NCBI GenBank assembly: GCA_020402865.1
Contig: JADBYT010000004.1
Coordinates: 1-64,000, forward strand
Direction: 5' to 3'
Length of the DNA: 64,000 bases
DNA from: Bacteroidota bacterium
Lineage (GTDB): Bacteria > Bacteroidota > Bacteroidia > Palsa-965
Part shown: positions 46,570-48,460 of the stretch, piece after piece
Position numbering within the stretch: position 1 is the first letter of the stretch
How the letters are laid out: each line of letters starts with the position of its first letter
Position numbers and translations under genes: made by a program
Notes under the pieces: model-generated
What the model was told of the DNA's origin: nothing
What the model saw: the letters and a program-made list of their open reading frames with translations, nothing else
Databases searched by the model: none

Positions 46570-47328
46570 TTATTTTGTGACACCAGGAGAAGGCTTTGTA
46601 AAATCAATTTTACGGCGCTTCAGCGATTTCAAAACCTGTTCACTTGTATAAGCAGAATCAATAAACAGCGAATAAATAAGCTGATGATGTTGTTTGTTGG
46701 TGAATGCCATTAAATCGGGGTAAACAGAATCAATTTGATAGCCGTAAGAAATTTCGTCCCCATTGTAATTCTGCCCGATTTGTTCGCCAGACCTTAGCGG
46801 AGCTGTTTTTGATACGCTGGCTTCAGGTGTTTTTGGTTTAGATTTACTTTCCACCGAATCCTTTTCCGGAATAACCGGCACTTGTCCCGGCTTTTCCTCT
46901 TTCACAGAATCGGTTTTTCCTTCCGGCGCATTCAGCATTTCATCGGGAATAAGTGGCGGATGATCTTCGCGTGTTATTTGCACCGCCGTAAGCGCAAAGG
47001 CAATGGCCGAAACGGCAGCCAGCGTGGCCACCGGAATCCACCAGAATTTTTTCAGCCACAATTTCCATTTCGGAATGGCGTTGCGTGTGGGTGTGTAGGC
47101 AGCCAGTGCGGTGGCGCCAACGCCCGCGCCAATTTCGGCCAGCATTTGTTTGAATGCGGCGCGGCCTTCGTCGTGCATTACTTCCTGCGCATTGGTAAGC
47201 CATTCGGCCTCTTCCAGCAGCCCGGGCTCTGAGGCAAGGCGGGCTTCAAACGCGGCAAGTTCGTCGGCGGCGAGTTCGCCCCGGAGCCAGCGTTCAAGCT
47301 GTTCGTATGTGGCTTCGTTCAACGGCAT
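46570..47328 (-). CDS. Single-pass membrane anti-sigma-like protein
   Basis: 252 residues from the ATG at 47328, which overlaps the sigma gene stop by one base (TAATG); a longer frame exists but runs into the sigma gene. N-terminal ~80 residues are acidic-helical (LERWLRGELAADELAAFEARL), the arrangement of FecR/RskA-type anti-sigma N-termini, without a zinc HxxxCxxC motif. One membrane helix lies at ~107-127 (WWIPVATLAAVSAIAFAL), then a Pro/Lys/Asp-rich periplasmic region of ~120 residues. The overlap implies translational coupling to the sigma factor that it probably holds inactive. Confidence 0.78.
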   Translation of the reverse strand: MPLNEATYEQLERWLRGELAADELAAFEARLASEPGLLEEAEWLTNAQEVMHDEGRAAFKQMLAEIGAGVGATALAAYTPTRNAIPKWKLWLKKFWWIPVATLAAVSAIAFALTAVQITREDHPPLIPDEMLNAPEGKTDSVKEEKPGQVPVIPEKDSVESKSKPKTPEASVSKTAPLRSGEQIGQNYNGDEISYGYQIDSVYPDLMAFTNKQHHQLIYSLFIDSAYTSEQVLKSLKRRKIDFTKPSPGVTK

Positions 47329-47882
47329 TACACGTGCGAGATTGATTGAAAGCCCTGCCGCAAACGCTGCAGGCATTTATACTTCTGGTTCTTGGCCGAG
47401 TCGGCACCGGAGTAATTCATTTCGGCCGCAATTTCCTCCATCGTTTTGCGGAAGTAATAGTACAGCAACAGCAGCTTGCGGCAGGGCCCGCCCATGCGGT
47501 TGAGCGCGTCTTTGAGCTGTCGGTGCGCATCGGTGCGGTGCTCGTTTTCGTTGGGCAGTGTTACCGGCTCTACAGGCTCAAAATCGGTAATGCTTACCAT
47601 GCGGCCACGGCGTTCAAGCTGTTTCAGCCAGCGGTTGCGGCACACCGCATACAGCCAGGTTTTGAGCGATGAACGCTGTTCGAATTTTCCGGCACGCAAT
47701 TGCTCATACAAAATCACCAGCGCATCCTGAAACACGTCGTGCGCATCTTCTTCACGGCCATTGTTGTGAAGCACAAAATACCGCACCATGGCAAAATACG
47801 CGACATGCGCCTGCCTGAAAGCCTTGCTCTCGCCGGCGTGTATGCCGGCCAGCAATGCTGCATCTGTTGCGTATTCAATCAT
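47328..47882 (-). CDS. ECF-type RNA polymerase sigma factor
   Basis: 184 residues. Region 2 (~22-90) contains the ECF pattern EEDAHDVFQDALVILYEQL and LKTWLYAVCRNRWLKQLERRG; region 4 (~125-180) contains LPE-like helices ending MEEIAAEMNYSGADSAKNQKYKCLQ (given as a location, residues ~150-174) that recognise the -35 element. It is translationally coupled to the membrane anti-sigma-like gene downstream, so it probably responds to an envelope signal. Target promoters cannot be told from this window. Confidence 0.9.
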   Translation of the reverse strand: MIEYATDAALLAGIHAGESKAFRQAHVAYFAMVRYFVLHNNGREEDAHDVFQDALVILYEQLRAGKFEQRSSLKTWLYAVCRNRWLKQLERRGRMVSITDFEPVEPVTLPNENEHRTDAHRQLKDALNRMGGPCRKLLLLYYYFRKTMEEIAAEMNYSGADSAKNQKYKCLQRLRQGFQSISHV

Positions 47883-48064
47883 TGTTGCCTGTTAATTACC
47901 TGAAGCGGGGAAAGGTAACCTCCACTACAAAGAAAAAGCGAAAATTCTTTCAATGGCGTTTTGTGGATGATAGCGGGATTAAATGTGCGTGGTTATTACA
48001 CAAAAGGACTTTTTGTGTGATGTGCGGATTGTTTTGTGATGATTTGGAAGAGTGATGCGTGAAT
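47883..48064. other. Intergenic region upstream of the sigma factor
   Basis: 182 bp holding the sigma-factor promoter region on the minus strand; no convincing -33/-7 pair and no ORF seen. The tandem repeat begins at 48065. Confidence 0.4.
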
Positions 48065-48307
48065 GCGGATTATTAAAAAATGATCCGCATTGGCAAGCCT
48101 GAAGTCAGAAAGCAAAAGCGGCGCGCTATCGCGCACCGTTTTATTTTCCCTTAGGCGAACGCTCAACCAAGCATGGTTTTCGCCAGCGGATTATTAAAAA
48201 ATGATCCGCATAGGGCAAGCCTGAAGTCAACAAACAAAAGCGAGTCGCTGTCGCGCCTCGTTTTATTTTCCCTTGGGCGAACCCTCAAACAGGCTTGGTG
48301 CTCGCCC
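48065..48307. repeat. Two tandem copies of a 121-bp structured repeat
   Basis: Copy 1 starts at 48065 and copy 2 at 48186. Each contains, in order: a GCGGAT...ATCCGC hairpin (48065-48088; 48186-48209), the block CAAGCCTGAAGTCA, a 20-nt hairpin flanked by CAAAAG and TTTTATTTTCCCTT (stems CGGCGCGC/GCGCACCG in copy 1, CGAGTCGC/GCGCCTCG in copy 2), and a GGCGA...TCGCC hairpin with a 21-nt loop. The stems differ between copies with at least one compensatory base-pair change (A-T to G-C), so structure seems conserved over sequence. No coding capacity. Confidence 0.8.
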
Positions 48308-48351
48308 AAGGGAAAATAAAAAACGCCACTACCGTGGCGTTCTTTTGTTTG
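48231..48351. repeat. Inverted repeat with 50-nt arms, each arm holding a 20-nt hairpin
   Basis: Left arm 48231-48280: CAAACAAAAG, then a 20-nt hairpin, then TTTTATTTTCCCTTGGGCGA. Right arm 48302-48351: TCGCCCAAGGGAAAATAAAA, then a 20-nt hairpin (AACGCCAC/GTGGCGTT), then CTTTTGTTTG. Outer 10 bp and inner 20 bp pair perfectly; only the two middle hairpins differ. Loop 21 nt. The first copy of the tandem repeat has the left half but a truncated right half. Could be a REP- or MITE-like element or a multi-branched RNA. Confidence 0.75.
48322..48341 (-). terminator. Terminator of tRNA-Cys (part of the inverted repeat)
   Basis: AACGCCAC (48322-48329) pairs with GTGGCGTT (48334-48341); on the minus strand a T-rich tract follows. 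It begins 16 bp after the tRNA 3' end. Confidence 0.7.
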
Positions 48352-48356
48352 TATTG

Positions 48357-48427
48357 AGGTCCCGAGCGGATTCGAACCGCTGTAGCAGCTTTTGCAGAGC
48401 TGAGCCTAGCCTCTCGGCCACAGGACC
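48357..48427 (-). tRNA. tRNA-Cys (anticodon GCA)
   Basis: Read on the minus strand: acceptor GGTCCTG pairs with CGGGACC (one G-T), D-arm GGCCGAGAGGC, anticodon stem CAGCT/AGCTG around CTGCAAA (anticodon GCA), T-arm GCGGTTCGAATCCGC. The discriminator is U73, as expected for Cys. The CCA end is not encoded. It has a consensus promoter upstream (48468-48495) and a hairpin terminator downstream. Confidence 0.95.
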
Positions 48428-48434
48428 TTTCGGT

Positions 48435-48460
48435 TGAAAAACAACAATTGTTGTTTTTCA
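48435..48460. other. Perfect 26-bp palindrome between tRNA-Cys and its promoter
   Basis: Two 13-nt halves, TGAAAAACAACAA and TTGTTGTTTTTCA, meet without spacer. It lies in the tRNA 5' leader and downstream of folB on the same strand, so it may be a folB terminator, a processing hairpin or a protein-binding site. Confidence 0.6.

Follow-up and report, generated by a model that had tools for sequence, protein, structure and literature searches.

A tandem structured element downstream of a Bacteroidota tRNA-Cys gene, possibly a tRNA-specific integrative unit

The element at the tRNA-Cys locus

The DNA analysed (the window) is a stretch of 64,000 nt from a Bacteroidota bacterium (Palsa-965), and corresponds to positions 1–64,000, forward strand, of contig JADBYT010000004.1 of the assembly GCA_020402865.1. 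The window carries a tRNA-Cys gene on the minus strand, and the element described here is therefore located downstream of the tRNA. A gene encoding a sigma-70-family factor (47328–47882, minus strand; Pfam Sigma70_r2) marks the other flank. Two tandem units of 121 bp (48065–48185 and 48186–48306) align end to end with one small gap, and the second runs on into an inverted repeat featuring its own hairpins. This layout had been proposed in an earlier, sequence-only reading of the window, and is confirmed by alignment and folding. The inner arms of the inverted repeat are perfect over 20 nt, as then described, and the outer arms measure 11 nt, rather than 10. Coordinates are given in Table 1. 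The same order, a complete unit and a truncated one, is found in another genome (G080, locus L192).

Table 1. Features of the tRNA-Cys locus and of the downstream element
Feature	Position	Strand	Evidence or remark
tRNA-Cys (GCA), T-stem AGCGG/CCGCT	48356..48427	-	ARAGORN and Rfam RF00005
Outer arm, tRNA side	48342..48352		11 nt, pairs with 48230-48240
hp1, hairpin of the tRNA-Cys intrinsic terminator	48322..48341	-	terminator scan and fold; followed by T-rich TTTTATTTT on the minus strand
Inner arm, tRNA side	48302..48321		20 nt, perfect complement of 48261-48280
Inner arm, distal side	48261..48280		20 nt, perfect complement of 48302-48321
hp2, second terminator-like hairpin	48241..48260	+	folds and sequence; TTTTATTTT next on the plus strand
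Outer arm, distal side	48230..48240		11 nt, pairs with 48342-48352
Conserved linear segment TTGACTTCAGGCTTGCCCTAT (family form TTGACYYYAGGCATGCCC)	48210..48230	-	models R1/R2 and alignment
T-arm-like hairpin GCGGATCAT-TTTTTA-ATAATCCGC, complete unit	48186..48209	-	
Second unit, truncated, without its hp1 half	48065..48185	-	
Truncated unit: short hairpin GGCGAA...TTCGCC	48154-48184	-	
Truncated unit: inner-arm remnant	48139-48158	-	
Truncated unit: hp2 homologue	48119-48138	-	
Truncated unit: linear segment	48089-48107	-	
Truncated unit: T-arm-like hairpin	48065-48088	-	
Candidate decayed third T-arm-like hairpin, GCGGATTGTTTTGTGATGATTTGG	48024..48047		15/24 identical, shuffle p ~0.02; weak

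The private hairpins had been said to differ in sequence while preserving pairing. Those of copies 1 and 2 show partial homology (CGGCGCGCTATCGCGCACCG and CGAGTCGCTGTCGCGCCTCG), with one compensated pair; the hairpin starting with AACGCCAC is unrelated to both. In the T-arm-like hairpin, a G-U wobble on the strand opposite to the tRNA corresponds to a C-A mismatch on the tRNA strand. The folding energy of the region 48060–48355 lies below that of dinucleotide shuffles by 10.8 s.d. on the plus strand and 10.6 s.d. on the minus strand, and none of 200 shuffles was as stable. According to a terminator scan, AACGCCACGGTAGTGGCGTT followed by TTTT on the minus strand is the intrinsic terminator of tRNA-Cys. 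Judged from its sequence, the hairpin 48241–48260, with TTTTATTTT after it, reads as a terminator for the opposite strand. An internal intrinsic terminator is found on each strand, and would be met before a full cloverleaf RNA is complete.

The element is not repeated elsewhere in the genome. Whole-genome searches made with the element and three named blocks, mismatches allowed, identified no other copy in 4.9 Mb. No further exact copy of CAAGCCTGAAGTCA was found in the genome, near matches being no commoner than for a reversed control, and the two units in the window are the only genomic matches of R1, a covariance model of the motif made by the linear segment and the T-arm-like hairpin. REP elements are palindromes tagged by GTAG or CGTC (PMC3733652). 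The element shares with them a short hairpin with an internal, conserved mismatch, and occurs in tandem copies, features that suit the suggested REP/MITE-like dispersed mobile repeat, inserted by chance at the tRNA terminator, of which further copies would be expected. In contrast to REPs, the element is site-specific and resides at a single locus. No GTAG or CGTC tag adjoins either of its hairpins in the flanks, no REP transposase gene was seen next to it at the locus, and the matches found in other genomes (see below) are at tRNA-Cys alone. The dispersed-repeat origin was rejected because the element occupies one locus only in the genome, and is regarded as highly improbable.

In Rfam searches the gathering score was reached by the tRNA only, other matches being weak and at chance level, and membership of a known RNA family was accordingly rejected. 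The element had no match in a phage search. In a plasmid search the motif from locus L124 was unmatched, and the unit from L193 gave short, partial matches only; a phage or plasmid origin was discarded on these outcomes. In viral contigs, pattern matches stop short of the hairpin and resemble coding sequences, and are thus attributed to chance. Neither a recombinase gene nor a duplicated tRNA 3' end was found near the window's copy, and the window yielded no decayed remnant of a tRNA 3' end above chance level. The tRNA 3'-end part present in the window's units is limited to AATCCGC(T), and is full in L124.

A perfect 26-bp palindrome (48435–48460, TGAAAAACAACAA/TTGTTGTTTTTCA) lies directly upstream of the tRNA-Cys gene. 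Palindromes with arms of at least 9 nt were found in 3 of 57 regions upstream of tRNA-Cys, the window's included.

Recurrence in other Bacteroidota and conservation of pairing

A nucleotide search made with the element across 39 related genomes gave no match, and the regions downstream of tRNA-Cys were therefore retrieved through the neighbouring gene folB, the comparison set including one genome per species. The same parts in the same order, spelled with different letters, were found in a genome of the same genus (G003), in one of the same family (G011), and in the MAG of a more distant member of the Bacteroidia (L124). The shared order is outer arm, terminator hairpin, T-rich inner arm, loop, inner arm, second hairpin (weak in G003 and L124), outer arm, TTGACYYYAGGCATGCCC, GCGGATCAT..ATAATCCGC. 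Members of several Bacteroidota families share the architecture, next to tRNA-Cys itself or next to a copied tRNA-Cys 3' end.

Covariance models built from these sequences extended the set. Outside the sequences used to build them, model R1 matched in G080, G319 and G153, model R2 in G395, G080:C26 and L126. All these matches lie within about 150 nt from tRNA-Cys or from a copy of its 3' end, except G080:C26, found at a contig end where placement relative to tRNA-Cys is impossible. Leaving this one unplaced, strong motif matches in the searched genomes are at tRNA-Cys only. A weak match in G339 was discarded, as neither the tRNA nor the unit is present there. Ordinary sequence searches miss the element because its conservation is confined to its shape and some 40 nt. 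Its presence is patchy within the genus, and in five genomes, belonging to four genera, the motif hairpin starts 142–146 nt away from the end of the tRNA. A class-wide model search had low sensitivity and missed the window's own copies, so absence in that search carries no meaning. A strict pattern search of 395 genomes of the class matched G011 alone, the pattern being too strict.

Of 59 regions downstream of tRNA-Cys, 8 adopt a closed fold with three branches. Branches measure about 20, 60 and 20 nt in seven (the window, L126, L128, L192, L193, L194, L196), and have other sizes in L158. The cloverleaves of G003, G011 and L124, recognised by eye, are additional to these eight. Among 783 kb of fetched DNA, 42 folds of the general cloverleaf type were detected; the five distinct folds at or below -50 kcal/mol are all at tRNA-Cys or at a copy of its 3' end. 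Ordinary tRNA-Cys tails are far less folded than the element; the tail in L071 resembles it and lacks the outer helix.

Arms have little sequence in common between different genomes, and pairing is kept. Between G319 and G395, two members of one genus, the inner helix of 20 pairs keeps 10 as they are, differs on a single side at 2 and on both at 8, and no pair is broken. Among the cells of the motif hairpin 95.6% pair, with both-side changes at two pairs, and the covariation score was higher than in any of the 500 shuffles or any slid control, though the alignment was fitted to that structure. As regards the selection on structure first surmised from the window's hairpins, comparison with other genomes supports a selection-like covariation. 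Part of it could be produced by quasi-palindrome correction, without selection.

The latter process is central to an explanation in which no function is selected: template switching at hairpins would duplicate the terminator region of tRNA-Cys, and quasi-palindrome correction would mimic covariation. Mismatched arms can be converted to matched ones by template switching, the arms match the host's own terminator and vary between genomes, and the tRNA 3' end and terminator are tandemly duplicated in several genomes. The linear segment and the T-arm-like hairpin, common to several families, are not derived from the terminator; this, the recurrence of the branch sizes, and the confinement of the most stable branched folds of the 783-kb scan to tRNA-Cys make such an origin unlikely.

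The main rival to the integrative unit discussed below is a structured element that resides at the locus and is inherited vertically: a small RNA gene convergent to the tRNA, or the processed tail of the tRNA-Cys transcript. Selection would maintain its structure, and tandem copies would be gene duplications. The small RNA would consist of a 5' hairpin, a conserved GGGCATGCC..GTCAA, and hp2 as terminator. The maintenance of structure despite sequence turnover and the constant distance from the tRNA fit this view, as do the G-U wobble, rather than C-A, on the anti-tRNA strand, the quality of hp2 and its T-tract as terminator, and the fact that the motif-plus-hp2 part is what is duplicated in the window and in G080. 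The branched non-coding RNA listed among the early guesses corresponds to this view, and is weakened by the terminators met on both strands ahead of the full cloverleaf, and by the promoter survey, in which the Bacteroidota-type sequence TAnnTTTG was found upstream of the motif at none of 10 loci, so that a small-RNA promoter was discarded at motif loci. The lack of any Rfam family at gathering score and the patchy distribution also count against a resident element, which leaves the abutting copies of the tRNA 3' end unexplained. This possibility is considered doubtful.

The T-arm-like hairpin and copies of the tRNA 3' end

The last hairpin of the unit resembles the T-arm of tRNA-Cys (AGCGG..CCGCT). 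In G395 the T-stem of the tRNA is GCAG/CTGC, and the motif hairpin, GCAGATCAT..ATAATCTGC, features the same change; in its congener G319, CCGCT is found in the copy of the tRNA 3' end, and GCGG in the motif hairpin. Few variant T-stems exist among all the tRNA-Cys compared, and G395 is the sole genome informative on whether the hairpin follows the T-stem. Across genomes the loop of the hairpin ranges in length between 3 and over 20 nt, and an attachment site, if one, would more likely be recognised in hairpin form than as a duplex core with fixed spacing.

Fragments of tRNA genes are already known in prokaryotic genomes (PMC9897764). In L124, a 197-bp unit is found between tRNA-Cys and a second AATCCGCTCGGGACCTC, into which the motif hairpin passes directly, and which is followed by another good terminator; the unit thus looks inserted between the tRNA and its terminator. 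A 170-bp unit in L128 ends with ATAACCCGCTCGGGACCTC, and a degenerate tRNA 3' end, TCGGGGCCGTC, follows the motif in L194. Five motifs, repeated cloverleaves and further copies of the tRNA-Cys 3' end are clustered within 2.4 kb from tRNA-Cys in G011 (L091). In G319, the only case of an integrase beside this site, a gene encoding a 402-aa tyrosine integrase is found next to a copy of the tRNA-Cys 3' end that directly adjoins the unit; the unit itself is on the chromosomal side and not part of the integrase-bearing island. At several other loci the tRNA-Cys 3' end is duplicated within 73–185 nt, and no such duplication appeared with a reversed control.

The 2.4-kb array in L091 (5838–8192) includes a gene for a ParE-family toxin with an upstream partner gene, likely the antitoxin, and a truncated metallophosphoesterase-like ORF. 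The array looks like a small genomic island or a cassette array.

A putative integrative unit and its relation to known systems

We favour, with a probability of roughly 0.45, the view that the window hosts a small integrative unit specific for tRNA-Cys, present as a complete copy and a truncated one in tandem, and probably immobile now. From the tRNA outwards, the unit (about 145–200 bp) would comprise a cloverleaf terminator, a linear segment and a T-arm-like hairpin. The first part may work as a bidirectional terminator, made by the outer helix, hp1 serving the tRNA, the T-rich inner stem, and hp2 stopping traffic from the far side. The second would be the conserved segment of 18–20 nt, the third a hairpin imitating the T-arm of the host tRNA-Cys, which in the best-preserved copies runs on into the 3' end of the tRNA. 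A recombinase acting in trans, of which a tyrosine integrase attacking tRNA-Cys 3' ends is the likeliest kind, would join the T-arm-like end of the unit to the T-arm or 3' end of the tRNA. The tRNA would be regenerated, with the terminator of the unit replacing the displaced one, and repeated events could generate tandem units and at times trap cargo.

This account is the simplest one to cover site specificity, T-arm likeness, tandem copies, patchiness and the tRNA 3' ends that adjoin units. Of the three early guesses, a recombination site at the tRNA terminator is also the best supported, since the motif occurs at tRNA-Cys alone and units elsewhere abut duplicated tRNA-Cys 3' ends. On the other side, arms wholly different even within a genus better fit a long residence under structural constraint, the variable loop would break the standard double-stranded core of tyrosine recombinases, which has fixed spacing, and several copies of the 3' end may have arisen by plain tandem duplication. 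The lack of a recombinase gene and of a duplicated tRNA 3' end near the window's copy, the position of the G319 unit relative to the island, and the single variant genome behind the T-stem match also count against it. No sign of current mobility is seen in the window's copies, which look immobile.

If the integrative unit is real, mobile DNA can enter an essential tRNA gene leaving its 3' end and termination intact, insertion is achieved by very small units that copy the T-arm of the tRNA itself, and the element is a new structured one, absent from Rfam. A bolder version, rather unlikely in our judgement, is that the units form a hitherto undescribed class of minimal, site-specific tRNA-Cys cassettes (about 150–200 bp), in which the T-arm mimic would be the attachment end, read as a single-stranded DNA hairpin, and the cloverleaf terminator would preserve tRNA function, longer versions gathering cargo (such as a toxin-antitoxin pair) in integron-like arrays with a tRNA gene as anchor.

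The attC sites of integrons are recombination sites recognised as single-strand hairpins, with conserved stems and variable loops, arrayed beside a fixed anchor, and carry the boxes RYYYAAC and GTTRRRY. The element similarly features a hairpin with a conserved stem and a variable loop, in serial copies beside a fixed anchor. In contrast to attC, the anchor is a tRNA gene, and inspection by eye of the element sequence detected no RYYYAAC or GTTRRRY boxes of the R/L type; nor was an integron integrase gene (intI) noticed. The 178-bp tyrT repeats of E. coli, associated with rtT RNA, likewise follow a tRNA gene in tandem, and each finishes with a portion of its 3' end. They differ in tRNA and phylum, Rfam searches reported no sequence similarity, and a cloverleaf is not known in that family. 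The Riemerella 10K island at tRNA-Arg is targeted to the tRNA 3' end with a duplicated attachment sequence (PMC6764341). The 53-bp repeat described there looks terminator-like in sequence, ending in a hairpin plus T. Such tyrosine-integrase islands share with the present units an attachment sequence duplicated at a tRNA gene. The present units measure 85–200 bp, are mostly geneless and tied to no recombinase, and add the cloverleaf terminator and the T-arm-like hairpin with a variable loop. In a limited literature search, the combination of cloverleaf and T-arm mimic was not found described.

Two minor observations concern other tRNA-Cys loci. Downstream of tRNA-Cys in L090, L103, L148 and L152, short duplications of the 3' end carry a hairpin apparently in place of the T-loop, as in GCGGTTCGTACCGATGACTATCGGGACCGC|TCGGGACCTC in L152; a second family of T-arm-like ends is possible. 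In L194 (1235–1300), a partial pseudo-tRNA-Cys split by TCCCGATAGCTATCGGGA is found close upstream of the intact gene, and palindromes similar to TCCCGATAGCTATCGGGA recur near the motif in G011.
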